A stretch of DNA of 37,501 nt, taken from the NCBI GenBank assembly GCA_910575605.1, contig CAJTEW010000027.1:1-37501 (forward strand), given 5' to 3'. This DNA is from Lachnospiraceae bacterium. Lineage in GTDB: Bacteria > Bacillota > Clostridia > Lachnospirales > Lachnospiraceae. The position numbers and the translations under genes were made by a program. Shown here piece by piece: positions 25,272-37,501 of the stretch. Positions within the stretch are counted from its first letter, which is position 1. Every line of letters begins with the position of its first letter. Under the pieces are notes generated by a model, which did not search any database, was not told where the DNA came from, and saw only the letters and a list, made by a program, of their open reading frames with translations.

Positions 25272-25326
25272 GAAAAAACAAGAAGTGCCTCAAGCCCTCT
25301 ATTTACAAGGGTTTGAAACACTTCTT
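25272..25326 (-). terminator. Terminator of the tRNA-Leu remnant
   Basis: AAGAAGTG (25280-25287) and CACTTCTT (25319-25326) with inner CAAGCCCT/AGGGTTTG pairs form a long hairpin. On the minus strand it is followed by GTTTTTTCTT. It lies right behind the tRNA 3' end, as a native tRNA terminator would. Confidence 0.7.
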
Positions 25327-25331
25327 ACCAA

Positions 25332-25389
25332 TGCCGCAGACCGGAATCGAACCGGTACGGGAGTATAAGTCCCGCAGGATTTTAAGTCC
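25332..25389 (-). tRNA. 3' fragment of tRNA-Leu (anticodon TAA), probable attachment-site scar
   Basis: On the minus strand the sequence runs from the anticodon loop CTTAAAA (anticodon TAA at 25384-25382) through the variable arm GCGGGACTTATACTCCCGT and T arm ACCGGTTCGATTCCGGT to the acceptor CTGCGGC plus A. The 5' acceptor (expected GCCGCAG), D arm and part of the anticodon stem are missing; unrelated DNA follows. Tyrosine-integrase elements entering tRNA 3' ends leave such fragments. The intact gene is not in the window. Confidence 0.75.
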
Positions 25390-25548
25390 GTAGGGGTCAT
25401 TTAACCCCATTAGTACAAATAGGACCTCATTGGAACTTAGAACCCTTAGAAAATGCAGGAAATTCAAGGTTTTTTACAGCGAAAAGCTAGTAATCCTTTT
25501 AAATACAAGATACACCAAGAATTTGGTTTTGGCAAGACAAAAATCATA

Positions 25549-25581
25549 TTGGAGGGATGTTGGAGGGATGTTGAAGGGATC
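25549..25581 (+). repeat. Three tandem 11-bp units
   Basis: TTGGAGGGATG occurs twice, followed by TTGAAGGGATC. It lies in the gene-free stretch between the tRNA-Leu remnant and the next gene. Another open frame crosses it but has no support. Confidence 0.6.
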
Positions 25582-25644
25582 CAGCCCGGATTTCATCTTC
25601 TCTCTCATGTAAAATATAATGTAACTGCCATAACTACTATTAGC

Positions 25645-25677
25645 AAAGACGGACGGTTTTTAGCCATCCGTCTTTTT
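25645..25677 (+). terminator. Hairpin with T run upstream of the island's first gene
   Basis: AAAGACGGACGG (25645-25656) pairs with CCATCCGTCTTT (25664-25675) with one mismatch, then T residues. It lies 23 bases before the next ATG, so it may be a leader attenuator or the end of an upstream transcript. Confidence 0.65.
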
Positions 25678-25700
25678 CAATTCAAAAGAAAGGAACTAAT

Positions 25701-26891
25701 ATGGAAAATCAAACCTATCAATTAGAGCTGAAACAAATCGTAGAATTTCCACGCTGCAGAATTTACAGAGATTTCATACGGTCACTCATCACTAACAAGG
25801 GCATCCGAACAAACGGAGGCTCTTTTCTTTTTTATTACATCGTCCTTTGCTCTTATGCAAATTATCGGTCGTCTTATCGCCGTACAGAAACTATGACTTA
25901 TCTTGTCGGGCCTGGGGAATGGATCTGCACTCTGGCAGATCTGCGCACATGGTTCCGGTGCCGGTTCCAGCATCAGGCAGTTTCAATCCTGGATTATCTG
26001 CAGAAACAGAACTACATCACTTACTCTCTTCTGGAGAATAAAAAGGTCGTAAAGTTCAAGATAACAGACTGGCCAAAAGACAATACTGTACTGGAATACA
26101 ATTTCCCCTGCAAGAAGGATGACGGCTTTTTCTTTTTCCCAATCGCCAAAGTCCATGAACTTATCAGTATGGGCAAATGCTCGGAGATGGATATGCTTCT
26201 GGACATGTGGATTCATGCCATCTATAACGATCCGTCTGTACAAGGCTCCTACTCCGGCCCGGTTGTATATTACCGCAACCACACCGGCAATCCGGTTACC
26301 AGTTTTCAGACATTAGGTGACCGCTGGAACCATTCAAAGACAACCGTATCACGTACCTTAAAGAAGTTTGAAGAAATGAATTTCATCACATTAGTCTCTT
26401 TTACCGGAAGGCATGGCAGTATGATCTATTTGAACGATTATCTGTCAGTTATGTTCGACATCAGTGATGTAATGATTGATAAGGAGGAGATCGCTATGAC
26501 CATGCAACTGCCAATCCACATACCCGAAAATAAGGAAGAACTCTGCGTTTCAGAAGCTGTGAAAGAGGAACAAGTCAGCGTTCCAGAAAATGATTCATGC
26601 GTTCCGAAATCGCACATGCAGTTTATCATCCAAAAAGTCGCGGAAATGCTGAAATCACAAGGCATTCCGTGCTGCGAGTGTCCCAAAACCCGCTATATAT
26701 TATCTCCTTTATCCTCTGACTGCAGGAATATAGTAAATATATATACTCTAAGTATTATCTGCCCTTATGGAAATGCTGCCTACCGTTTTGAGCTGACCGT
26801 CAAGCCTGAAGAGAAGGACTATCTGGAGAGGAATCCCATCCTAAAAGATCATGCAGATATTGTGGAAAAGATTCTAAAGGGGGCTGAATAA
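25701..26891 (+). CDS. Plasmid/element-type winged-helix protein of unknown role
   Basis: The 396-residue protein has no family I can name with confidence. The central part (about 200-255: FQTLGDRWNHSKTTVSRTLK then FEEMNFITLVSF) is a clear winged-helix of the kind used by phage/plasmid replication or transcription proteins. An earlier part (about 70-115) with GPGEWICTLADLRTWF reads like a second such domain. The C-terminal third has cysteines (GIPCCECPKTRY) and a helical end. AAAGGA precedes the ATG. The gene is followed, after 3 bases, by another element-type gene and then by a tyrosine recombinase. A replication initiator or element regulator is the likeliest role. Confidence 0.6.
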   Translation: MENQTYQLELKQIVEFPRCRIYRDFIRSLITNKGIRTNGGSFLFYYIVLCSYANYRSSYRRTETMTYLVGPGEWICTLADLRTWFRCRFQHQAVSILDYLQKQNYITYSLLENKKVVKFKITDWPKDNTVLEYNFPCKKDDGFFFFPIAKVHELISMGKCSEMDMLLDMWIHAIYNDPSVQGSYSGPVVYYRNHTGNPVTSFQTLGDRWNHSKTTVSRTLKKFEEMNFITLVSFTGRHGSMIYLNDYLSVMFDISDVMIDKEEIAMTMQLPIHIPENKEELCVSEAVKEEQVSVPENDSCVPKSHMQFIIQKVAEMLKSQGIPCCECPKTRYILSPLSSDCRNIVNIYTLSIICPYGNAAYRFELTVKPEEKDYLERNPILKDHADIVEKILKGAE

Positions 26892-26894
26892 AAG

Positions 26895-27611
26895 ATGGAT
26901 ACAAGCAGGAAGGATGCAGGAAGGAATGGTGCAAAGTTGGAGGATACAAGAAGAGATGGTGGAAAATCAAAGGATATGAGGACGAGCCGAGTGAAATCAA
27001 TACATATGGATATAAATGGTGCAGGAGGAATGGATGCAAAGATAGAGAAAAGCCTGAAGGGGAATAATGCAAAGATAAAGAGTGACTTGAATAAGCAGGG
27101 ATATCTAAAGCCAGAAGAGGATCCACGCTTTCACGACACCTATAAATTTCTTCGTAGATACCGAGATGCAACCTATAGCCTGAAGGTGGTAGTTCACCAA
27201 ATGGAGAAGCAATTCCGGCTGAAATATGGAACAAGTGTGGATGAATTCCTTGATTCCATTTATACTGCAGGAGCCGATCTGTCTGGAGATGATATTGAAG
27301 AACGGGCAAAGAGCATCAAACGAAGTAACCGGATGCTGAAGATGCTGGATTCCTCTGTAGACTTGCTTAGAACTAACCACAAACACGGAGAACAGTATTA
27401 CTGGATCCTTTACTATACTTTCCTTTCTCCGCAGGAGCCGAAAGGTACGAACGAAATCATAGAGAAGCTGAGACCCCATATCGCCAACATTTCCTATCGT
27501 ACCTACTACCGGAAACGCCATGCTGCCATTGAAGCATTAAGTACGATTCTGTGGGGATTTACAGCGAAAGAGACTATTGAGATACTAAACGAATTTTTCC
27601 CCGAAGATTAA
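26895..27611 (+). CDS. Phage/element protein with sigma-like or ArpU-like C-terminus
   Basis: The 238-residue product begins with about 65 low-complexity, charged residues encoded by purine-rich degenerate repeats of the GGATRCAAG type. The folded part (about 75-238) is helical. Its end, KLRPHIANISYRTYYRKRHA followed by AIEALSTILWGF, resembles the sigma-region-4-like helix-turn-helix of phage late regulators such as ArpU/RinA. That match is by pattern only. It starts 3 bases after the previous stop and precedes the integrase by 63 bases. The true start could lie downstream of the low-complexity part. Confidence 0.6.
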   Translation: MDTSRKDAGRNGAKLEDTRRDGGKSKDMRTSRVKSIHMDINGAGGMDAKIEKSLKGNNAKIKSDLNKQGYLKPEEDPRFHDTYKFLRRYRDATYSLKVVVHQMEKQFRLKYGTSVDEFLDSIYTAGADLSGDDIEERAKSIKRSNRMLKMLDSSVDLLRTNHKHGEQYYWILYYTFLSPQEPKGTNEIIEKLRPHIANISYRTYYRKRHAAIEALSTILWGFTAKETIEILNEFFPED

Positions 27612-27674
27612 AGTAATCGACATTTCATAGATGGATACTCATAATAGATATAAAAAACTAAGGAGTATCCATTT

Positions 27675-28601
27675 ATGAACAGATTAGAGACTTTAATTGC
27701 AAGCTACATGAAAAACTGTGAATCCATTAAAAAACTGGATAAGAAAACCCTGAAGGCTTATCGCATTGATCTGGCGCAATTTCAGACATTTATGCTGGCA
27801 TACCCTGATTTTGAAGATAAGAATGCTATAAATGATTACATTTCCTCACTTCATGACCAGTATAAGCCACGTACTACCAAAAGAAAGATTGCTGCTTTAA
27901 AAGCCTTCTTCCATTATTTAGTTTATGAAGAGCTGATTGCCACAAATCCCTTTGACAAAATAAATGTGAAATTTCGGGAACCGCAAATACTGCCCCGCAC
28001 AATACCGGAAACCACGATTGCCACATTTATCTCCACGATGTATAAACAAAAATCATTTGCAACTACAACGTACCAATACAATGCTGTTCTTCGTGACATC
28101 ACTATCATTGAGCTACTCTTTTCAACCGGTGTCAGGATTTCAGAATTGTGCGCCTTAAGAATACAACAAGTGGATCTGGTATCCTACAAAATAATCATTT
28201 ATGGTAAAGGCTCTAAAGAACGCCTGATCCAGATCGGCAATGATGACGTAAAAAAGGTAATAGCCGAATACTATGCTGCATTTCAAACTGATATTGCTGC
28301 CACCGGATGGTTCTTTATCAATCGGCTCCATCAGCGGTATTCAGAGCAGTCTGTGCGGGCCATGATCGTAAAATACTTAAAATTGGCTATGATTGACATG
28401 CATATCACTCCACATATGTTCCGTCATTCATTTGCCACTTTACTGCTGGAAGCTGACGTTGACATCCGTTATATACAAAAAATGCTTGGTCACAGTTCGA
28501 TCAAAACGACTGAAATATATACAAGCGTATCCATGGCAAAGCAGAATAATATTCTGACAACCAAACATCCTCGGAACTTTATGCATCTAAATGAATGTTA
28601 A
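27675..28601 (+). CDS. Tyrosine recombinase (XerC/D-like integrase)
   Basis: The 308-residue protein has an N-terminal SAM-like core-binding domain (about 5-100) and a complete catalytic domain. The active-site set is intact: R154 in TGVRISEL, K178 in GKGSKER, H247 and R250 in TPHMFRHSF, H273 in MLGHSS, and nucleophile Y282 in TTEIYTSV. It is a plausible driver of insertion at the tRNA-Leu 3' end 2.3 kb upstream, but it could instead be a resolvase-type Xer protein of the element. AAGGAG lies about 9 bases before the ATG. A bidirectional terminator follows. Confidence 0.93.
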   Translation: MNRLETLIASYMKNCESIKKLDKKTLKAYRIDLAQFQTFMLAYPDFEDKNAINDYISSLHDQYKPRTTKRKIAALKAFFHYLVYEELIATNPFDKINVKFREPQILPRTIPETTIATFISTMYKQKSFATTTYQYNAVLRDITIIELLFSTGVRISELCALRIQQVDLVSYKIIIYGKGSKERLIQIGNDDVKKVIAEYYAAFQTDIAATGWFFINRLHQRYSEQSVRAMIVKYLKLAMIDMHITPHMFRHSFATLLLEADVDIRYIQKMLGHSSIKTTEIYTSVSMAKQNNILTTKHPRNFMHLNEC

Positions 28602-28631
28602 AAGCAAGTTTACTTTTTAGCTTTCCTGAAA

Positions 28632-28675
28632 AAAAGCAGTGAACATTTCTTCTGAACCGTGTTCACTGCTTTTCT
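28632..28675. terminator. Bidirectional terminator after the integrase
   Basis: A 14-bp perfect stem AAAAGCAGTGAACA (28632-28645) with TGTTCACTGCTTTT (28660-28673). The stretch 28676-28906 beyond it has no gene, only the short repeat at 28848-28875. Confidence 0.8.
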
Positions 28676-28847
28676 ATTACTGTCAATGACCCACTCCGCC
28701 GATAATCCTATCCTGACTTCTATTTCTAGAGTGTAGCAAATGACGGAGAATTTTCCAAAGAAAATTGTTAAAAAGTCACAGAATAAGCAAAATGTGGCAA
28801 GTTAAAGCCGTCAATCGTAGTAAATACGTAGTAAGAATTGAGGACTC

Positions 28848-28875
28848 TTACTACTTTGGTATTTTAGCATGAATT
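28848..28875. repeat. Short direct repeat, copy 1
   Basis: TTACTACTTTGGTATTTTAG followed by CATGAATT matches 29633-29660 with about 3 differences. On the minus strand both copies could encode a KIP-stop peptide end, so copy 1 may be the tail of a duplicated, now decayed integrase fragment. Confidence 0.6.
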
Positions 28876-28906
28876 TTGTTGTTTGTAATATATATACCTT
28901 TAAACA

Positions 28907-29515
28907 CTAATCCTCTATTCCTTCCTCATTAATTGGTTTCTGCAATATTGCATATTCACAAACGATATCTACGAATTCATTAAAAAACCCTGAATATCCC
29001 AATTGCTCTTTCCCAAAAGAATATCTGAAATCTTCAAACAGATTTGAAATATTAGTAAGGTTAAATTTCAACGTTTCTTCATTTTGGTGTGCTTGCTTAT
29101 AGATTATTTCCGTCAAAACATTCTTGTGGCAATCAGGCAGTTGCTCAAAAAGGCGTCGAAGATTATGAATACATTCGTATGAGCCCATTTCCTTAAATAT
29201 CAGAAACTTAAGAGCTAATTCTGCTGCTAATGCCCCATTCACAACAAGAGGCGATTTGAGAGATGGAATACCTTCGTGTTGTTTTGCATAATCATCAATG
29301 CTCTCTTGATTTTTTTCCATACTTTCACAAAATGTAGGAAATTTCTCAAATTCTTCCAATCGCTTAAATAAATAATAAAAACTTTCACATTCAAGCACCA
29401 TCATTTTGACTGTCAATGAGTTATCACTATTTCTACACTGCTCAAGGTGTTCACAAGCAGCACATTTAGACATAGGAGTAAATGGAACACCAGTAAATTT
29501 ACGTTTTGAAGACAT
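28907..29515 (-). CDS. Unknown protein with HEPN-like helical domain and Cys-rich start
   Basis: The 202-residue protein has an N-terminal cysteine pair CAACEHLEQC (about 18-27) plus C43, possibly metal-binding. The C-terminal helical part (about 90-195: NGALAAELALKFLIFKEMG, HNLRRLFEQLPDCHKN, LFEDFRYSFGKEQ) has the layout of HEPN-type domains seen in RNases and defence proteins. The catalytic Rx4-6H motif of HEPN nucleases is not visible, so nuclease activity is doubtful. It is a single gene between two short direct repeats in an island full of mobile-element debris, consistent with recent insertion. AGAGG precedes the ATG. Confidence 0.55.
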   Translation of the reverse strand: MSSKRKFTGVPFTPMSKCAACEHLEQCRNSDNSLTVKMMVLECESFYYLFKRLEEFEKFPTFCESMEKNQESIDDYAKQHEGIPSLKSPLVVNGALAAELALKFLIFKEMGSYECIHNLRRLFEQLPDCHKNVLTEIIYKQAHQNEETLKFNLTNISNLFEDFRYSFGKEQLGYSGFFNEFVDIVCEYAILQKPINEEGIED

Positions 29516-29632
29516 TATACATACCTCTCTGACTACCTTTCATCAAATCTTAATCTCTTTTTCTCTATACTAAAATTCATGAATAATACTCCATATTAAT
29601 ATTCTTTGATACACATTTCTCTCATATAAAAT

Positions 29633-29660
29633 TTACTACTCTGGTATTTTAGCATAAATC
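29633..29660. repeat. Short direct repeat, copy 2
   Basis: TTACTACTCTGGTATTTTAG followed by CATAAATC; partner of 28848-28875. It includes the stop region of the decayed integrase frame on the minus strand. Confidence 0.6.
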
Positions 29661-30146
29661 CAACCATTTTGATATAGCAAGTATAAATAAAAAGATGCCC
29701 TACCAAAGCAGAGCGCACAAACTTTCCATATATCAGATTGCCTGAAAGATTTTTTTGAAACAGGCTTCTTTTCCATTTCCTTCCTTGCCATCTCTAAATC
29801 CTCCATCCTCTTCAACTCATCCGCAGCATCATCCGTCATAAGAAGTTTCCTCGTTCCTGCATTCTTCGTGGATTCAATCACCAGCTTCATATTCGCCGCC
29901 ACCGAAGCTAGTGGTCAATGTTGAGGATTTTATATTCCAGATCAATATCCCGCAAAGTCAGCCCGCAGAACTCCGAAATTCGCAACCCCGTATGGAAAAG
30001 AATACCGTCACCACCACCATCGACAGTTCAAAGCCAAATGGATTCTTATAGCACATCATCATCCACCGCCATCTGGAACGCTGGTCACAGGATTCCCCGG
30101 ACTGTTTTACCCTCCACAAATTCTCCGTTTTTCTACTATAAACCAA
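29636..30146 (-). pseudogene. Decayed Tn916-type tyrosine integrase
   Basis: Pieces of an integrase can be read in order on the minus strand. NGEFVEGKTVRGIL, then an in-frame stop where an arginine is expected, PAFQMAVDDDVL, a frameshift, and NPFGFEL. A deletion follows, then FHTGLRISEFCGLTLRDIDLE and KILNIDH, a stop where glutamine is expected, and after another shift KLVIESTKNAGTRKLLMTDD. The catalytic HxxR and tyrosine regions are missing. Its 5' side ends exactly where the 41-bp inverted repeat begins (30146), as if the cassette to the right had cut it. Confidence 0.8.
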
Positions 30147-30186
30147 GGATAATCAAGTATTATCTCTTGTATAAAGAGGATTCTTA
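30146..30186 (+). repeat. 41-bp inverted repeat, left copy
   Basis: Identical to the reverse complement of 33918-33958 over 41 bases. It is made of two adjacent dyads, GATAAT-N5-ATTATC and CTCTT-N5-AAGAG. It lies 21 bases before the glycosyltransferase start, so besides marking a cassette boundary it may be an operator or leader hairpin. Confidence 0.9.
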
Positions 30187-30207
30187 TCTACTAAAAAGGA
30201 TATAAAT

Positions 30208-31056
30208 ATGAAACAAGAAAAAATGGTGAGCATCATTATTCCTACATATAACAGAAGTTTGCATTATCTTTCAAGGGCTGTTCATAGCATTAAACAGCAA
30301 ACATATATACATTATGAAATTATTGTTGTTGATGATAATATATGCAGTTCAAATTATAGTCTAAGTATTGAAAAGTATTGTATATCTCATAAACTTATAT
30401 ATATTAAAACAAAAGGTAAAGAAGGTGCTAACAAGGCTCGAAATATTGGTGCACATCATTCCAGAGGAGATTATCTGGCTTTTTTAGATGATGATGATAT
30501 GTGGTTGCCAAATAAATTAAAAATACAATTAGAAAATATTTCTGATGATATTGGCATGGTATATTCGAATGGATATGTTATAACATCAACTTCTCAACAA
30601 TTATACACAGATTCCGCTAATTTCGTTTCTAATGGGAATCTATATAGACTCTTACTATATAACTATATTGGTCCTACAGTGACAGCATTAATAAAAAAAG
30701 AATGTTTTTTTGCAGTTGAAATGTTTGATGAAGCTATGCCAGCCAAACAAGATTATGATTTGTGGATAAGAATAGCCACCAAGTTTAAAATCAAAGGGAT
30801 AAATCACCCATTATATTTATATACTCAGCATAAATCACATCAAATTACCAAAGATTACTCTTTGCTACTTAAAGGCTATCAAATGATTTATGAAAAAAAC
30901 AAAACATATTTTACACATGATTATATTTTAAAAGCATTTTTTTATTTAAAAATTGCAAAATTATTTAAATATGATAAAAAATACTTTAAATACTACAAAT
31001 ATATTTTGCTAGCATTTATAAATATATATAATGCACCCATAAATACTATATTTTAA
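30208..31056 (+). CDS. GT2-family glycosyltransferase
   Basis: The 282-residue protein has a GT-A fold N-terminal half with VSIIIPTYNR (7-16), the nucleotide-sugar strand YEIIVVDDN (36-44), GANKARNIGA (73-82), and a metal-binding run DDDD (94-97) in AFLDDDDMWLP. The acceptor-side motif AMPAKQDYDLWIRIA is near 175-189. No membrane helix is evident, so it probably acts at the inner face of the membrane or in the cytoplasm. AAAGGAT lies before the ATG. The donor and acceptor are unknown. It is followed by an ATP-grasp gene on the same strand, and both are very AT-rich compared with the left half of the window, a sign of transfer. Confidence 0.9.
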   Translation: MKQEKMVSIIIPTYNRSLHYLSRAVHSIKQQTYIHYEIIVVDDNICSSNYSLSIEKYCISHKLIYIKTKGKEGANKARNIGAHHSRGDYLAFLDDDDMWLPNKLKIQLENISDDIGMVYSNGYVITSTSQQLYTDSANFVSNGNLYRLLLYNYIGPTVTALIKKECFFAVEMFDEAMPAKQDYDLWIRIATKFKIKGINHPLYLYTQHKSHQITKDYSLLLKGYQMIYEKNKTYFTHDYILKAFFYLKIAKLFKYDKKYFKYYKYILLAFINIYNAPINTIF

Positions 31057-31130
31057 TTACAGACTGCACTAAACATATCACTTTAACAATATGCTTTAAT
31101 AAAGACATTTAAGATAAAGGAGCGAATATT

Positions 31131-32177
31131 TTGATTACAAAATCACAGTACTATAATTTATTAGATGAAATTGCAGGAAAAACGATTGCTGTAGTATATA
31201 TATTTGAAAACGAGAAAGCTGCCGGCTTTAAGCATTATGATGTTTGGAAAAGTAATCTTATATCTTGTTGGATTAATGCTATACAAGAATTACGATGCAT
31301 TCCATATATTTTAGATGTACGTACATTTATATTTAAAATTACAAATAATACTCTTCCTCATATTGATTTTGTTATAAATATGAATGCTGGTTGTGAAGAT
31401 CTTTCAACATTAGGATTAGTTCCTTCTGCCTGCGGTTTCCAAAATCTGGAATGTATACCTTGTAATACATCAGCAATAATTACTGGAGAACACAAAAGAA
31501 TAGCTAATATGATTGCGCAATGCTGCGATTTTAATGTTCCAAAAGTATCGAAAACATCTAAAAGTATATTTAGACCTTTGAATTTTGGGAGTAGCAAGGG
31601 TGTTTATTTGACAAAAGATTATCCTGATAATAATACTAATATTGAAGGAATATTTCAAGAATTCATCCCAGGATATGATGTAACAACCCCTCTAATGTAT
31701 AATCCTTTGACAGAAGAGATAAATCCATTGCCGAGTATTATATATTATCCGGAATGCAATGATATCAATTGGTATTTAAGTGATACTGCAAAAAAAACAT
31801 CTTCAGGATTTACTCGTGAGATATTCCCTAATATTAGCGATAAATTAACTGATAATTTTATAAATTTGATGCAAAATTTTGATATTGATACATATTGTAG
31901 AGTTGATTCTCGTTTATATTCTGAAAAACGCTTGTCTCTATCAGAAATAAAAAGGTTAACATTTAATAAAGAGAATTGTTATTTTATAGAAATGAATCCT
32001 ATGCCTACTATTGAAATAGGTAATAATTTTTATGTTTCTATGATGAGTATTTCCCAAGACTTTGCTTTTTATGATACCATAACTTATTATAACGAGAAGA
32101 CAGAAAACCATAGTTTTCATGGTTTTATACTGTCATGCGCTATAATCAAAAAAATTATATCCAAACATAAAAAATAA
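31131..32177 (+). CDS. ATP-grasp ligase-like protein (D-Ala-D-Ala-ligase-type fold)
   Basis: The 348-residue product starts with TTG (31131) behind a good AAAGGAG. ATP-grasp landmarks are visible: the central-domain start TGEHKRIANMIAQCCDFNVPK (about 118-138), the phosphate-binding RPLNFGSSKGVY (148-159), the hinge FQEFIPGYDVT (175-185), the metal-binding CRVDSR (256-261) and FIEMNPMPTIE (285-295). The order fits D-alanine--D-alanine-ligase-like ATP-grasp enzymes, which join a carboxylate to an amine or thiol. It has no signal peptide. Together with the GT2 gene it suggests synthesis or decoration of a peptide- or amino-acid-linked glycan (inference). Its end overlaps the convergent TPR gene by 23 bases. 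Confidence 0.78.
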   Translation: MITKSQYYNLLDEIAGKTIAVVYIFENEKAAGFKHYDVWKSNLISCWINAIQELRCIPYILDVRTFIFKITNNTLPHIDFVINMNAGCEDLSTLGLVPSACGFQNLECIPCNTSAIITGEHKRIANMIAQCCDFNVPKVSKTSKSIFRPLNFGSSKGVYLTKDYPDNNTNIEGIFQEFIPGYDVTTPLMYNPLTEEINPLPSIIYYPECNDINWYLSDTAKKTSSGFTREIFPNISDKLTDNFINLMQNFDIDTYCRVDSRLYSEKRLSLSEIKRLTFNKENCYFIEMNPMPTIEIGNNFYVSMMSISQDFAFYDTITYYNEKTENHSFHGFILSCAIIKKIISKHKK

Positions 32178-33846
32178 GAGGATTGTATCCATAACGTTCA
32201 ATAAATTCAGCTCTGCGTCCAGAAATTTTAGATTTTTTAGACGGCAGAATAAGTTTATTTATAAGATCAAAATTATGATTTTGTTCATATAATGTTTTTA
32301 ATTGCAAAATTAGTGGACCTGAAGACATTATATTTGAATATAATGACAATTGAATTAACCTTTCAACCGGAAACAATATTAATAAATTGTTATATAGATT
32401 AAAATTCTGTTTACCTGCAATTGCCAATAAATTTGTCACATAGCAAGCCGATAAGTATGGAAGTTCGTCTCCCATGCTGTCAAAAATTTGTCGCATGTTA
32501 AATATAATATTTTCTTCACTTACTTTTTTTAATGAATATGACTCTGCTATTAAAATATTAACTTGAATAGCTAAACGTTGAACAGTTCTGTCTTCTTTTC
32601 GTGCTAGTTCATAGCCTTTATTGAAATTTTCAAGTGCATCATTGGGATTTCCTGCAAGAAGATATGCAACTCCAGTATTGTTATATATATGAGAAATACC
32701 GACTAAGCCATGAACGTCGTTTATGGCTTTTTCCGATAAAGCTTTAAATTGTCTGGGACGCACTTTATTTGAATTAAACTGTAAAATGAGCGCATTATTT
32801 TCACAGTATATGGCATGATCCATCATTCCGTTTTGAGTAAATATATCTTGGGCTTTTTGTAATAATGGAACTTGATCTAATTCATTTTCTTGTGGTAAGA
32901 AATACGCATATCTATATACATGAGCTAAAAGAATATCATTATTCAATTCTTTAGCAATTGTAAGTGCATCTAAAATATCTTGATTACCAGAATCATTACA
33001 AAATACACGATTCAATTTTGCTAAACACAAAAAACTATTTGAAAGATATAAAGACTTTTCATTACATTGGGTGTTGTTGCTCAAATCATTTATAATAATA
33101 TCAAGGTCGGTCTTACAACTTTCTTTTTCATCAAATAACAACTTTGATCTTATTTTAAACATCAATGGTGAATAAAAACTTATAATGGATTCTTTACGTA
33201 ATTCTTCTGAAAGTAATATTTCTCTTTGTGTATGAGAACAGGTGCTAAAGCACTGAGTAGCAAACATATCAATAAATAATTCTATATCATCTGCTCCACT
33301 ATTAATTACTTTATATATTGTTGACTCTCCATTATTGCGTATGAATTTAATATTCATTCCATTCGGACAAAATTGTAAAAGCTCCTTTGCACGTTCAAAA
33401 TTATTATCCTTTAATATTATTATAATAGTAGGTTGAAGTATACTATGTTGATGCAGGCATACTAACTGACTAAGTCGTTTTTTTGAAATACCATCTTCTT
33501 GAATGATAATTGGATCAATTACTTCAGGGCCTACTGCTTGATGATTATAAGTAGTAAACGTTTGTGACATTATTAAAACAATTTCATCTAATGCAGCTCT
33601 TTTTTGATTTAATAATAAATTTGTAATAAGGTTCTTTAAATTAGGTGCATTCTTTCCAAGCCAATTTGTAATTTTAGCCAAAAATTTATTAATTTCAACT
33701 TCTGTAGATATGAAGTTCTCCTTTCCTTTGAAAGAGTTGAAAAATTTTCGTCCTCTGTCATTGGCAAACCTTTGTTCTACCACATAAATTGTAAATGCTT
33801 CTTGATGCTCGTTAAATAGTTCTTCTGTATCTATAAAATTTTCCAT
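32155..33846 (-). CDS. Large TPR-containing protein of unknown function
   Basis: The 563-residue protein is mostly helical. The clearest tetratricopeptide unit is HIYNNTGVAYLLAGNPNDAL followed by ENFNKGYELARKE (about 385-420), with degenerate repeats before and after. The N-terminal 200 residues have no recognised domain; there is no helix-turn-helix and no signal peptide. GGAGG lies 4 bases before the ATG. It converges on the ATP-grasp gene and carries the same 41-bp sequence upstream as the glycosyltransferase gene, so the two transcripts may share a regulator. A scaffold or peptide-sensing role is possible; none is shown. Confidence 0.6.
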   Translation of the reverse strand: MENFIDTEELFNEHQEAFTIYVVEQRFANDRGRKFFNSFKGKENFISTEVEINKFLAKITNWLGKNAPNLKNLITNLLLNQKRAALDEIVLIMSQTFTTYNHQAVGPEVIDPIIIQEDGISKKRLSQLVCLHQHSILQPTIIIILKDNNFERAKELLQFCPNGMNIKFIRNNGESTIYKVINSGADDIELFIDMFATQCFSTCSHTQREILLSEELRKESIISFYSPLMFKIRSKLLFDEKESCKTDLDIIINDLSNNTQCNEKSLYLSNSFLCLAKLNRVFCNDSGNQDILDALTIAKELNNDILLAHVYRYAYFLPQENELDQVPLLQKAQDIFTQNGMMDHAIYCENNALILQFNSNKVRPRQFKALSEKAINDVHGLVGISHIYNNTGVAYLLAGNPNDALENFNKGYELARKEDRTVQRLAIQVNILIAESYSLKKVSEENIIFNMRQIFDSMGDELPYLSACYVTNLLAIAGKQNFNLYNNLLILFPVERLIQLSLYSNIMSSGPLILQLKTLYEQNHNFDLINKLILPSKKSKISGRRAEFIERYGYNPLIFYVWI

Positions 33847-33917
33847 GCTTCCTCCGAATAGTATTAGGTAGCTTTCAAAATAATTTCATTTACTTCTAAT
33901 GTAAAATAACAGATAAC

Positions 33918-33958
33918 TAAGAATCCTCTTTATACAAGAGATAATACTTGATTATCCT
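33918..33958 (-). repeat. 41-bp inverted repeat, right copy
   Basis: Exact reverse complement of 30146-30186. It lies about 72 bases before the start of the TPR gene, on that gene's strand. Together the copies enclose the three-gene cassette. Confidence 0.9.
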
Positions 33959-34198
33959 CTGTTCGTACTCTCCCCCTTTTATTTTATACTAATTATACAA
34001 TTTTTTCCAGTATATGACAATTTTCTTACATCATATCCGTAGTTTGTTACATCACATTGTAAAAATATCTGGCACAGACGATATCTCTACAAGTTTGCTT
34101 CCGAATCTAATAACCGAAAGTCGATTTAGGGATTCCATTTTCCAAACACATCAATCTTTGCAGGACAGTCTGCTATTCATAAAAGCCTATCTGACCAA

Positions 34199-34447
34199 AT
34201 GTATGATTTTACCGATTGGGTCGGCAATTATCCTGAACTTCTGACTGATCCAGCAACCAGAGAGATATGCAAGGTTCATGCGTTTGCTATAACATTGGGC
34301 TTTAGCAGCCGCGTATGCACAGAGATCTTTCCTGATGAAAAACTTCCAAATTTTATTGCTGGCATTGTCCATGCTCTGGAATACTATAGAGCCGTTCCGA
34401 AAAATCTTGTTCCGAACAGCCTGAATACTGCAGTCTCTAAACGATAA
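34199..34447 (+). pseudogene. istA: IS21-family transposase (IstA) fragment
   Basis: The 82-codon frame reads MYDFTDWVGNYPELL, KVHAFAITLGFSSRVCTEIF, NFIAGIVHALEYYRAVPKNL and LVPNSLNTAVSKR. This is the central DDE-domain stretch of IS21 transposases (DWaG..., then rAfEyf.GvPk..VpDNLKtAV). One catalytic aspartate is replaced (VPNSLNTAV where VPDNLKTAV is usual). Sequence upstream (33959-34198) shows no further readable part in the same frame. The transposase is non-functional. Confidence 0.8.
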
Positions 34448-34499
34448 ATTAATCCTAAATTCAGCTTTTCATTTATGTTCCTACAAGGGAACTGGACAC

Positions 34500-34979
34500 A
34501 ACTGCGATTGAGTAGCTGGCAGTCTGCCATTGGATTAACGAAGGAAAGAACCTGCTGATTATCGGGATGCCAAACATGGGAAAACACACCTAAGCATTAC
34601 CTTGTGTATTTGCTCTTCGCTAGCTGAAAACAATACAATATATCCGAACAAACATGCTCATGTTCGAACTGGAGTAGGCCAGACAGAAGTCAACCTATCT
34701 GGAATACGTTACTGCGCTGTCCAAACTTGATCTGCCTGCAATCGATGACTTCGGTCTCATGGAATTGGCTCTGGATAAATGTCACGATCTTTTTGAAGTG
34801 ATCGACGGACGGGATGGATGCGGATCCACTATTATCATCTCACAGCTTCCGAGCAAGTCCATGGTTTGATCTGTTTCGGGAACATACCCATGTAGATATA
34901 TATCGTCCGTATTACCGATAAACGACATAGTTATCGTCTTGAAATGAATAGCATCAGTACGCGCGAAGCTGAGAAATAA
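34500..34979 (+). pseudogene. istB: IS21-family helper ATPase (IstB), frameshifted
   Basis: Readable parts in order: WINEGKNLLIIGMPNMGK, then a one-base loss inside Walker A. YLEYVTALSKLDLPAIDDFGL holds Walker B; it is followed by HDLFEVIDGRDGCGSTIIIS, QLPSK, and at the end RHSYRLEMNSISTREAEK before TAA at 34977-34979. Several stops and frameshifts separate them. It follows the IstA fragment in the usual IS21 order. The stretch 34980-35174 after it probably holds the decayed IS end and the promoter of the next gene. Confidence 0.85.
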
Positions 34980-35174
34980 GCATTTATCAGTAAAGGAGTG
35001 GTGCTCCGCACCGTTTAAAATGGGCTAAGTACATCGTTGGTGCGAAACATATGCCCCTTTTACAGGAATTTGCAATAAATCGTAACCTTATAATCGTTAA
35101 CTCGAATCTAAACATTGGATAATTTATAGTTATCCTTCATTTATACTGTTTAGTTAGAAAGAAGAGAGATACTT

Positions 35175-36608
35175 ATGCCATCTATCGCATTAAAAAAATT
35201 AAAAAAATATGGCTACAGCCGTCAAAACATCTCAGAATTTGAAAAAGATAATCGTACTATTCACAAAAAAAATTATAAAGGCATGTCTTTAAATCGCAGT
35301 ATTTTAGAGTATACCGAAATCAAAGAATGCAATTTTGATTTTGCATCCATTACAGGAAGTATCTATAGGGATTGCACATTTACAGATAATTCTATACATG
35401 AATCAGACTTTGAATTTTGTGAGTTTTCAAACTGCAATTTCCAAAACAAATCTCCCATTAATTGTTCCTACAATAATAGTAACTTTATAAATTCACGATT
35501 CTTTGACGTTACCTTTGATGCCTGCACTTTCACGAGCGCTTACTTCGAGAGATGTCAATTTAATGGCGGCGAGATAAAGTATTCAACTCTTGAAAATTCA
35601 GCATTTAAAGACTGTACATTCAACAATATGGATTTTCGTAATCTCAACATGGATTTTGTTGAGATTACCAGTCCACATATGAACTATGTTGTGCTGCCGA
35701 TGGCTCAGATACCTTTTATGTACGGCTGCATGAATTATTTGCTGGAAACAAAAGACGCTGTAAAAATTTCGAAAGGAAAAGATGCGGACATTTCTGTTCA
35801 TGAGTATTTTGAAAAGGTGATTCCTTTAATGAAAAAATACTTTGATGAATCGGGTCAATACTTCCCGTTGTCCAATATTTATATTGCACTAAAAGAGTAC
35901 GATTCGGCGATTCAGGCATTGAAGAAGGGATTGTCAATTGCTGTTGAAAACCGGGATTTCCGAATGCTGAAATATTACTGTTATCTGATTGCTAAGAGCG
36001 GTTGCTTCCAGCCAGATACATTACATATGTTTTATAACAATATCTGTCGGTTGAGTCCCCAGGGAAAAGGTTCGATGAATGAACTAAAAAACTATACCAG
36101 ACATATTGGGGAAATAAAAACGATTTTGTTCGAACAGACATCTATATCCAACTTGAATATGACGATACGATCAGATATTCAGTCAAAAAATATTTCGAAA
36201 TTGTCATATATTTTGGAATCAATATTTTCAATTTCGAAGACAGATATTGGATATGGCGTAAATCAAGTTGAAATACTTATTACAGAAAATTCGCCGCTTA
36301 TTATTGAATTACGAGTAGGCGGGGATGAAAATGGACTGGTTTGTCTGTTAATCGCGATGATGAAGTTATTGAATGTTGAAGAAAGGGCAAGTTTGTTCTT
36401 ACCTTATATTGACACGGATAACAATTGTATACAACAATTATATAAAACCGCGAAAGAATATAGCAGTATAATAAAGTCATATGCTGTAAATCTTACGCTT
36501 GCTGAATACTACCTTGGTAATTTTAGAAAAGATTGTTTTAAGGACATACCATGTTATTACCATAACAGTTCTGTTTGCAATACATCATATTCCGCATTAT
36601 TAACTTAA
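35175..36608 (+). CDS. Pentapeptide-repeat protein with helical C-terminal region
   Basis: The 477-residue protein has an N-terminal run of pentapeptide repeats (about 36-170), such as CNFDFASITGS, CTFTDNSIHES and CQFNGGEIKYS, predicted to form a right-handed beta helix. The middle (about 210-300) is helical and TPR-like (PLSNIYIALKEYDSAIQALK). The C-terminal part (about 310-477) has a segment ISKLSYILESIFSISKTDIG then a predicted strand VNQVEILITEN, with no family I know. There is no signal peptide. GAAAGAAGAG lies before the ATG. The next gene, 22 bases downstream, is a membrane protein. The pair lies just behind IS21 debris, a setting common for defence or effector pairs, but no such role is shown. 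Confidence 0.75.
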   Translation: MPSIALKKLKKYGYSRQNISEFEKDNRTIHKKNYKGMSLNRSILEYTEIKECNFDFASITGSIYRDCTFTDNSIHESDFEFCEFSNCNFQNKSPINCSYNNSNFINSRFFDVTFDACTFTSAYFERCQFNGGEIKYSTLENSAFKDCTFNNMDFRNLNMDFVEITSPHMNYVVLPMAQIPFMYGCMNYLLETKDAVKISKGKDADISVHEYFEKVIPLMKKYFDESGQYFPLSNIYIALKEYDSAIQALKKGLSIAVENRDFRMLKYYCYLIAKSGCFQPDTLHMFYNNICRLSPQGKGSMNELKNYTRHIGEIKTILFEQTSISNLNMTIRSDIQSKNISKLSYILESIFSISKTDIGYGVNQVEILITENSPLIIELRVGGDENGLVCLLIAMMKLLNVEERASLFLPYIDTDNNCIQQLYKTAKEYSSIIKSYAVNLTLAEYYLGNFRKDCFKDIPCYYHNSSVCNTSYSALLT

Positions 36609-36630: not shown

Positions 36631-37392
36631 ATGACTGAATCATATTATATAATTCAAGGAGGTCTGTTTAGTCAGCCAGATCAGAATGCATTCACATATT
36701 ACCGTAGGCAAATCTGGCTACGTATAAAAAAGATATTTATTTATAGCATTATTTTTTTAATAAGTTGTATAGTAACAGGTAATATATTTTTGAACTGTAT
36801 TTCAGTTAAGGTGTCGGCAGAAGGAACTTCTATTATTAACTTAAATGAATGTATTTCACTGGGATCTATTTTTGCTACTTTTGGTTCCGCTGTTATATCG
36901 TTTCTTTCATTGACATCTGCCCATCAGATATCTGAATTTCAGGAAAAAGTAGACGTCCTCGCCGGAGAATTTACAAAGCAGGGGATTCCAAACTGGAAAC
37001 GGTGGGGATTTTTGCCAAGATTCAGTCGAAAACGTTCAAATAATGGAAAATATCAATATTTTATATTAAGAAATGCTATACTTGCATTTGAACTGAAGAA
37101 TGAAGAAATGAAAATCCAAATTCCATCTGTAGAGCAAGATTTCAAGGATTTACCCGTTTCCAGCAGCTATTATAAACTATGCGGGAAACGGAAATCCTAT
37201 TTGAAATATGTTCAAGAGAATAATTGTTTGGGTGACCTTGCCATATGGGATTGCCTCGTGTCTCTTTACAGAAATATTATTTTATATAAACTGAGTCAGG
37301 TAGGTGTCTGGATTGGGACATCATTTATCATAAATAGTATTATATATGCATTCTTCTATACGAAAATTTACTATATGATATGGACCTGTTGA
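36631..37392 (+). CDS. Three-helix membrane protein of unknown function
   Basis: The 253-residue protein has predicted membrane helices at about 34-56 (IFIYSIIFLISCIVTGNIFL), 75-96 (CISLGSIFATFGSAVISFLS) and 222-247 (VGVWIGTSFIINSIIYAFFY). A soluble domain of about 120 residues lies between helices 2 and 3, beginning ISEFQEKVDVLAGEF and containing KRWGFLPRFSRKRSN. No domain is recognised. GGGAAAG precedes the ATG. Close spacing to the pentapeptide-repeat gene suggests one operon and a shared job at the membrane. Confidence 0.7.
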   Translation: MTESYYIIQGGLFSQPDQNAFTYYRRQIWLRIKKIFIYSIIFLISCIVTGNIFLNCISVKVSAEGTSIINLNECISLGSIFATFGSAVISFLSLTSAHQISEFQEKVDVLAGEFTKQGIPNWKRWGFLPRFSRKRSNNGKYQYFILRNAILAFELKNEEMKIQIPSVEQDFKDLPVSSSYYKLCGKRKSYLKYVQENNCLGDLAIWDCLVSLYRNIILYKLSQVGVWIGTSFIINSIIYAFFYTKIYYMIWTC

Positions 37393-37447
37393 CAAACTCC
37401 CTTTTCCAGATCCGATTTTATATACCATCTTATGAAATGTTATAAAC

Positions 37448-37490
37448 AGGCTGGTAAATTCAGTTTTTACACCGCTTTTACCAGTCTCTT
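37448..37490 (+). terminator. Probable terminator at the end of the pair
   Basis: AGGCTGGTAAA (37448-37458) pairs with TTTACCAGTCT (37477-37487), one G-T pair; the T run after it is short and broken, so it may be weak. Confidence 0.5.
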
Positions 37491-37501
37491 TAGATTTAAT
37501 G

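Follow-up and report, generated by a model that had tools for sequence, protein, structure and literature searches.

A putative invertible two-arm gene cassette associated with the tyrosine recombinase XerL in a Lachnospiraceae genome

Cassette 1, its paired sites and XerL

We analyzed a 37,501-nucleotide stretch of the genome of a Lachnospiraceae bacterium (assembly GCA_910575605.1, contig CAJTEW010000027.1, positions 1 to 37,501 of the forward strand; hereafter the window), focusing on the segment at 30147-33957, which we call cassette 1 and propose to be an invertible two-arm element associated with a nearby tyrosine recombinase, XerL. The bases at 30146-30186 recur inverted at 33918-33958 at 41 of 41 positions, and the match extends to 46 bp at 96% identity; by simple arithmetic, chance is far too improbable an origin for a 41-bp match in 37.5 kb. 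An initial annotation of this DNA had claimed both the perfect repeat and the presence between its copies of only three complete, AT-rich genes. Both claims hold: three complete open reading frames (ORFs) lie between the copies, in DNA with a guanine-plus-cytosine content of 0.28 against 0.40 for the window.

Two of these genes form arm A. The first (30208-31056, + strand) encodes a 282-residue family 2 glycosyltransferase (GT2; Pfam PF00535, E = 1.5e-29). The second (31131-32177, +; TTG start) encodes a 348-residue protein with the predicted fold of an ATP-grasp ligase of the D-Ala-D-Ala-ligase type; its structure model (pLDDT 77.9) matches PDB entry 3r5x (E = 7.7e-11, TMq 0.59). Among curated profiles, ATP-grasp_3 scored 12.7 bits, below its cut-off of 23.2, NCBIfam gave no match and the Pfam E-value was only 0.13, so the ATP-grasp assignment rests on the predicted fold. 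Arm B (32155-33846, -), whose ORF overlaps that of the ATP-grasp protein by 23 bp, encodes a 563-residue protein that a weak Pfam match and a structure model (pLDDT 83.2) suggest to combine a mixed alpha/beta N-terminal part with a TPR superhelix: Pfam TPR_1 reaches E = 1.1e-3, below cut-off, and the PDB matches, to LGN, NprR and Rap, are weak (Foldseek 4gpk, E = 3.7e-3, TMq 0.38). The likeness to RRNPP peptide receptors is weak, LGN scoring equally well. The gene names of the initial annotation thus stand on Pfam for the glycosyltransferase and on the predicted fold for the ATP-grasp ligase, with Pfam support below cut-off for the TPR protein. The TPR and ATP-grasp proteins matched no family among the PADLOC models (E 0.001); the ATP-grasp protein found nothing in plasmids by tblastn, a two-row profile of it found nothing in viral contigs, and against the sequences of solved structures the profile gave matches no better than chance. 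Any assignment of roles is a guess, for instance that arm A carries out a dipeptide or cell-wall modification and arm B acts as a sensor. An integrase remnant was recognized by eye to the left of the repeat.

The core of the repeat is a 19-base dyad, GGATAA-TCAAGTA-TTATCT (general form GGATAA-N7-TTATCC), which gives a recombination-type site on the left at 30147-30165 (+), within the copy at 30146-30186, and one on the right at 33939-33957 (-), within the copy at 33918-33958, with an identical 7-nucleotide spacer in inverted orientation. The same arms flank other 7-nucleotide centres at window position 35117 and at six positions of contig C42 of the source genome. That the 41-mer might be a scattered intergenic repeat, a doubt raised with the initial annotation, is not borne out in the sequences searched: it has two copies in the source genome, which alone among 395 family genomes contains it at up to three mismatches, and an exact search of viral contigs returned none.

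The ATP-grasp protein has six relatives at 35-44% identity. In the first relative found, L003 (43-44% identity for the ATP-grasp and 35% for the TPR protein), an inverted pair of sites surrounds the two genes, both with the centre CTTAGAA, and such a pair bounds the cassette in all seven ATP-grasp/TPR loci examined (window, L003, L059, L060, L061, L062 and L067b), the centre being identical within each pair and different in each locus. The initial annotation had allowed that the genes might turn up elsewhere without a repeat; these close relatives are instead bounded by matched sites of their own. Of two weaker ATP-grasp matches, L064, which belongs to another subfamily, shows nested matched site pairs, and L063, the weakest aligned (20% identity), shows none. 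Many other loci retain little beyond the 19-bp core, with spacers that are matched yet locus-specific; centres occasionally recur between unrelated loci, as does TACATGA in L118 and L125. Matching within pairs together with divergence between loci is what would be expected of recombination sites with a homology-dependent overlap, and we found no alternative explanation that would fit this pattern. With near-symmetric arms and a 7-bp centre, the sites differ from Xer dif and pdif sites, whose centre is 6 bp. Nested pairs 44-47 bp apart with different spacers were seen at L064:4592-9021 and L134:7252-9163, and likewise in C42 (4695/4742 and 7950/7997).

XerL is encoded at 27675-28601 (+) as an intact, XerC/XerD-like protein of 308 residues (TIGR02224, E = 1.3e-67, below that family's cut-off) in which all six catalytic residues (R154, K178, H247, R250, H273 and Y282) are present. 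It lies 1.5 kb from the left site, farther than in most relatives with a pair, and XerL homologs stand 76-255 bp from matched-site cassettes in L059, L060, L061, L062, L064 and L067; the 10.7-kb contig of L003 lacks XerL. A profile search detected XerL in 53 of 397 genomes of the family, the source genome having a single copy at the cut-off applied; in a phylum-wide sample it was present in 1 of 398 genomes, again the source genome. The dyad in the repeat, the intact recombinase at 27675-28601 and the further site at 35117 go beyond the initial annotation.

Site pairs and convergent arms across XerL regions

To survey the association of XerL with such sites, we examined 46 of 58 XerL matches in score order, leaving out the 12 lowest-scoring. 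Inverted pairs with identical centres were found in 24 of the 46 regions, bounding cassettes of 1.9-6.7 kb. Forty permuted arm hexamers of the same composition yielded a mean of 0.025 and a maximum of 1 of 46 regions, and spacers of 5, 6, 8 and 9 yielded 0, 0, 0 and 1. Membership among dif or pdif sites was rejected on the same count, the 6-bp spacer giving 0/46. The 3' end of XerL lies within 250 bp of a contig end in 11 of the 46 regions and its 5' end in none; a site-like sequence (at most two mismatches; counted without a chance control) is present in 10 of these 11, the contig stopping 4-103 bp beyond it. Contig breaks at a site are what mixed orientations would cause, and long repeats could do likewise. 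Viral contigs contain nine XerL relatives, three of them strong, and phage records three. Among six viral and phage contigs scanned for sites, L150 has a pair, L152 and L160 have a lone site, and L151, L159 and L161 have none; one of the two L150 sites falls inside a reading frame.

We inspected 27 intervals: the outer pair of each of the 24 regions, the L003 cassette and two L067 modules. Every one of them consists of two transcription arms, each starting near one site, that converge. The interval ORFs are the longest ones, with unverified start codons (those of L062, L146 and L147 were moved by hand for the flank analysis), and L067 was included in the locus, arm and flank analyses though its XerL reads as two tblastn pieces. 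The 3' ends of arm pairs overlap in 22 of 34 cases, lie at most 100 bp apart in 11 and farther in 1, excluding the value for L122, which compared a small ORF with an inserted transposase ORF; at L122:12176-12781, an IS200-type transposase gene is inserted between the two arms.

In 24 of 29 cassettes, counting cassettes 2 and 3 of the source genome described below, an enzyme arm (ATP-grasp, GT2, GT4, radical SAM, SHMT-like, carbamoyltransferase or epimerase) opposes an arm with a TPR, STAND-type NTPase, TIR or pentapeptide protein, where arm identities, as in L125 and others, are Pfam matches at E up to 0.01 or homology and several of the STAND, TPR and TIR matches lie below curated cut-offs. 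The STAND arm of L130 also holds a hexapeptide-transferase gene, and one arm is unrecognized in four of the 29 (L118, L134, L146 and L147). In L148:6563-8907 (genome G154), a ThsA-like gene (E = 1.1e-60) converges with a ThsB-like gene (E = 2.4e-12) between matched inverted sites beside XerL; in Thoeris, ThsA and ThsB act together. The full GT2, ATP-grasp and TPR set recurs as such in one other genome, at L060, where the GT2 gene is 59% identical and occupies the same place in the cassette. Orientation varies within the ATP-grasp/TPR family, the TPR gene standing beside XerL in L059, L060 and L067b, and ATP-grasp or GT2 in the window, L061 and L062. The initial suggestion of a new biosynthetic or surface-modification system is too narrow: although the three-gene set recurs once, it belongs to a wide range of interchangeable cargoes, and the recurring feature is the two-armed design, of which the window appears to hold one copy.

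Inversion, exchange and expression

A tblastn search with XerL against plasmids returned nine records, five from Streptococcus, three from Aliarcobacter and one from Paenibacillus, and all nine were inspected; the Streptococcus and Aliarcobacter recombinases are 38-47% identical to XerL. In the complete Aliarcobacter cryaerophilus plasmids pM830MA and pACRY43158, whose recombinase is 44% identical to the window XerL, the flanks share one orientation (99.90% identity over 988 bp and 99.86% over 5020 bp), whereas the cassette (99.91% over 3458 bp) lies in opposite orientations. At both ends the alignments share 20 bp, and it is there that the sites, with the centre TAGGATA, are located; the cargo is a D-Ala-D-Ala-ligase-like ATP-grasp protein (E = 9.8e-18) versus an 823-residue protein with a weak AAA match (E = 8.7e-3). 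Inversion is thus strongly supported for these relatives by sequence comparison, and we infer that cassette 1 inverts likewise. A genus-wide search for an inverted copy of L118 turned up only the L118 genome itself.

The same plasmids point to exchange. Those of Streptococcus salivarius ICDC2 and Streptococcus equinus are common up to the sites (281 bp at 99.3% and 5156 bp at 99.1%) and have the same centre, TAAATTG, with cassettes lacking DNA similarity, one pairing an aminotransferase with a STAND-TPR protein and the other a polyprenyl synthetase with a 330-residue protein (the latter annotated from the NU10 copy, 99.7% identical). LAB813, equal to SALI-10 here, has a third cassette at this locus, with a methyltransferase versus a 327-residue protein. 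Similarly, pM830MA and pAFAEC of Aliarcobacter are common up to the sites (97.8% and 90.4%), with different cassettes and further differences farther out. Of 10 plasmid loci tested, 9 have their cassette enclosed by matched sites of the shorter core ATAA-N7-TTAT, a count without a control. Different cassettes with matching sites at one docking locus indicate that cassettes are also exchanged as units, and the relatives thereby support the 'mobile or invertible cassette' of the initial annotation in both senses.

In the source genome itself, cassette 1 looks like the first of three cassettes in a row, spread across two contigs on an apparent mobile element. The unit at 33958-35116, between cassettes 1 and 2, contains a promoter discussed below and has a copy of ~80% identity in C42; no intact gene was recognized in the rest of it. 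The left site of cassette 2 (35117-35135, +; spacer TTTATAG) has an inverted partner with the same centre at C42:3560-3578. Its window arm comprises a 477-residue pentapeptide-repeat protein with a TPR-like part (35175-36608, +; PF13599, E = 2e-12) and an unrecognized gene (36631-37392, +) whose 3' end is cut at 37382 by an insertion sequence (IS). The end of this IS-like element fills 37382-37501, with a 17-bp terminal inverted repeat and a 6-bp target duplication, TGATAT. Because the end of the window and the start of C42 look like opposite sides of a single IS, the two contigs are probably adjacent; once the IS is removed, 6 bp separate the ends of the two cassette 2 arms. The cargo of cassette 2 would then be the pentapeptide protein versus an ATP-grasp/radical-SAM fusion, which the intact L123 cassette matches at 26% and 33%, the two pentapeptide arms aligning at 26% identity with E = 3e-37. 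Cassette 3, in C42, sets a GT2 against a protein with a CAP12-type TIR match (E = 5.3e-5, below cut-off), and further C42 genes appear, on visual inspection, to be related to conjugation. On the two sides of a 21-N gap, this contig contains 413-bp and 412-bp inverted copies (99.5% and 98.8%) of the cassette 3 ends, such that both arm starts adjoin the same promoter flank; these copies are best read as both orientations present in one sample or assembly.

A promoter, TTGTCA-17-TATAAT, is predicted at 33992-34020 (-), just outside the right site and reading left into cassette 1, with a score of 12.1 against a background 99th percentile of 11.5. It aligns with both copies in C42 (-35 elements TTGTCA and TTGGCA, both with TATAAT) and with one in genome G004 (TTGCCA-17-TATGAT). 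Just upstream of the predicted -35 element, two GATGTAA direct repeats lie 21 bp apart (34026-34053, -); a LytTR gene stands beside the second C42 promoter copy and a 90%-identical relative beside the G004 promoter, and the repeats may be a putative LytTR-type binding site. Across 26 cassettes, the flank away from XerL scores at least 12.1 in four (window, L059, L118 and L140), and no XerL-side flank exceeds 10.5. The space from site to start codon is below 45 bp on both sides in 10 of the 26, too little for a whole promoter inside the cassette. The distal promoter enrichment and these short gaps together favour a single promoter outside the cassette.

We propose, with a probability of about 80%, that 30147-33957 is an invertible, XerL-associated two-arm cassette with two states. 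XerL would pair the two inverted GGATAA-N7-TTATCC sites, whose 7-nucleotide spacers would have to match, and, as the presumed agent, would invert the 3.8-kb segment between them, in which the GT2 and ATP-grasp genes face the TPR gene. A fixed promoter immediately beyond the right site, distal to XerL, would then transcribe whichever arm starts there, so that each cell would make mainly the products of one arm or of the other; the assembled orientation would correspond to the TPR arm on and the GT2-ATP-grasp arm off. Cassettes would in addition be exchanged as units between docking sites. Taken by itself, the either/or expression step is somewhat more likely than not.

Several observations weigh against this proposal. 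No genome was found that carries cassette 1 flipped, and the inverted copies in C42 could be a real duplication. The window XerL is 1.5 kb from its site, with an HEPN-like gene and decayed sequence between. Twenty-two of the 46 XerL regions gave no pair; 11 of these stop at a contig edge, six contain one lone site-like sequence close to XerL, and the remaining five contain none. At the Paenibacillus locus L180, a STAND gene and a ligase gene converge next to XerL, but no pair was found, and L150:10319-13690, from the viral collection (XerL 57% identical), has a matched pair with cargo that is not convergent. The one-sided promoter is only a trend, exact TATAAT occurring on the distal flank in 9 of 26 cassettes and on the proximal flank in 3 (Fisher p = 0.097; 1 and 0 in outward-reading controls; background 5.4% per 60-mer). 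On the XerL side, terminators that read into the cassette were predicted for only 4 of 26 (background 2 of 150), and because they are so few, read-through from XerL may express the proximal arm. The Thoeris-like pair in L148 does not fit strict either/or expression.

These last points suit a variant in which inversion occurs but both arms are always transcribed, the proximal arm by XerL read-through and the distal arm from the outside promoter, so that a flip would alter their relative dose. XerL is oriented with its 3' end toward the cassette in 21 of 26 cases, with gaps down to 6 bp (L140, L146 and L148), no terminator is predicted there in 22 of 26, and the L148 pair would need both products. 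Such dosage control, which does not exclude the switch proposed above, is possible but on the unlikely side, given that only distal flanks (4 of 26, none proximal above 10.5) reach high promoter scores, that L118 and L131 do have a terminator separating XerL from the site, and that 1.5 kb separate the two in the window. Paired sites might also serve mainly to insert and replace cassettes, inversion being a by-product, as the three cassettes at one Streptococcus docking locus, the two at one Aliarcobacter locus and the row of three in the source genome would suggest. This too is compatible with a switch, and we regard it as unlikely to be the main function: a switch would account for convergent arms that fill the segment (27/27) and for sites in inverted rather than direct orientation, neither of which exchange requires, and a flipped cassette is observed in the Aliarcobacter plasmids.

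Explanations that dispense with XerL recombination fare worse. The initial annotation had offered a regulon whose two outer transcripts share one leader, and the repeat is indeed part of each 5' leader, with 42 and 92 bp between its core and the gene starts, as static co-regulated genes with two promoters and a duplicated 41-bp leader would have it. We do not favour this account and consider it very improbable, since what the leaders share is a recombination-type site, found at related cassettes around other spacers; in many loci hardly anything beyond the 19-bp core is conserved, the spacers being matched and locus-specific, XerL is adjacent, and inversion and exchange take place at the sites in relatives. 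A static shared promoter was likewise rejected. A composite transposon or IS-like element would account for inverted repeats at the ends of an AT-rich insert with decayed mobile genes around it, yet it is hardly credible here: none of the three ORFs is a transposase, the ends differ between elements while matching within each, the source genome holds no second copy, and related cassettes sit at one docking locus. IS or transposon ends were rejected on the first two of these grounds.

Surroundings, known systems and meaning

Between XerL and cassette 1 lies an HEPN-like gene of 202 residues (28907-29515, -; PF05168, E = 4e-4, below cut-off), which among 11 other loci searched is found only in L021, the same segment in genome G005. 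Positions 25321-30164 are 99.94% identical in G005, which belongs to the same genus and whose contig starts within the left site; the similarity breaks off at 25321, which looks like recent transfer of a mobile segment. In L059:4536-10753 (G141), an operon that looks CBASS-type by eye (nucleotidyltransferase, E1-like and JAB-like genes) sits between XerL and two plasmid-type genes that adjoin XerL in the window. In L067:2660-10052 (G438), XerL lies between two cassettes, each with its own spacer, and is probably frameshifted, possibly leaving them locked.

Pdif modules and integron cassettes are exchangeable gene modules with recombinase sites of variable central spacer, and Xer dif and pdif sites have XerC and XerD half-sites around a 6-bp centre. 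The cassettes described here are likewise exchangeable modules bounded by sites with variable spacers but differ in a spacer of 7 rather than 6, symmetric arms, a dedicated recombinase nearby and two convergent arms. The Mu G segment has two arms and one promoter; here the opposed arms recur in 27/27 intervals, and the promoter is one-sided only as a trend. Invertible segments of a few kilobases with a role in host range include Mu G, P1 C and e14 P, flipped by Gin, Cin and PinE (PMC12529663). The present cassettes resemble them as segments of similar size with alternative genes, which a site-specific recombinase would flip to change which are used, and differ from these serine-recombinase systems with tail-fibre genes in having a tyrosine recombinase, complete ORFs in both arms and exchangeable, non-phage cargo. 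With the tyrosine-recombinase invertons of gut bacteria and Clostridioides difficile (RecV, hCom2) they share inverted repeats, the recombinase type and, as proposed here, phase variation. Group 139 of the hCom2 invertons (32 of 33 from Clostridia) has been linked to a tyrosine-type recombinase group, and the two examples quoted for it have ~200 bp between repeats (PMC11892184), unlike the two-arm gene cassettes of 1.9-6.7 kb here. Whole genes here would change place relative to a promoter, in contrast to hsdS inversion, which exchanges recognition domains. In the type I restriction-modification systems of Streptococcus pneumoniae, the tyrosine recombinase PsrA flips coding DNA, recombining one hsdS gene with another (PMC4948785, PMC7096588). 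As for Thoeris, the L148 cargo is ThsA/ThsB-like, and the TPR and ATP-grasp proteins of the window match no PADLOC model. In the literature covered (titles and the starts of abstracts, with most subscription papers and preprints outside this coverage), we found no description of XerL-bounded two-arm cassettes.

More tentatively, these loci may belong to a cross-phylum class of exchangeable two-state cassettes, in which a dedicated tyrosine recombinase would dock and flip modules pairing an enzyme arm with an immune-sensor arm, and sister cells would be split into 'enzyme' and 'sensor' cells. The sensor- or effector-like arms would be the STAND/TPR, TIR, SIR2 and pentapeptide proteins, and the enzyme arms would typically modify small molecules or surfaces; the two arms would be partners in different cells, for example maker and receiver of a signal, or surface disguise and abortive immunity. 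What began as an odd repeat has become a recognizable and searchable class of putative genetic switch, for which a defined recombinase, site and junction are now available, making it directly testable. If the class is real, NLR-like, TIR and Thoeris-like genes in these bacteria would be phase-variable and interchangeable as cassettes, which would bear on why defence phenotypes could vary within clones.

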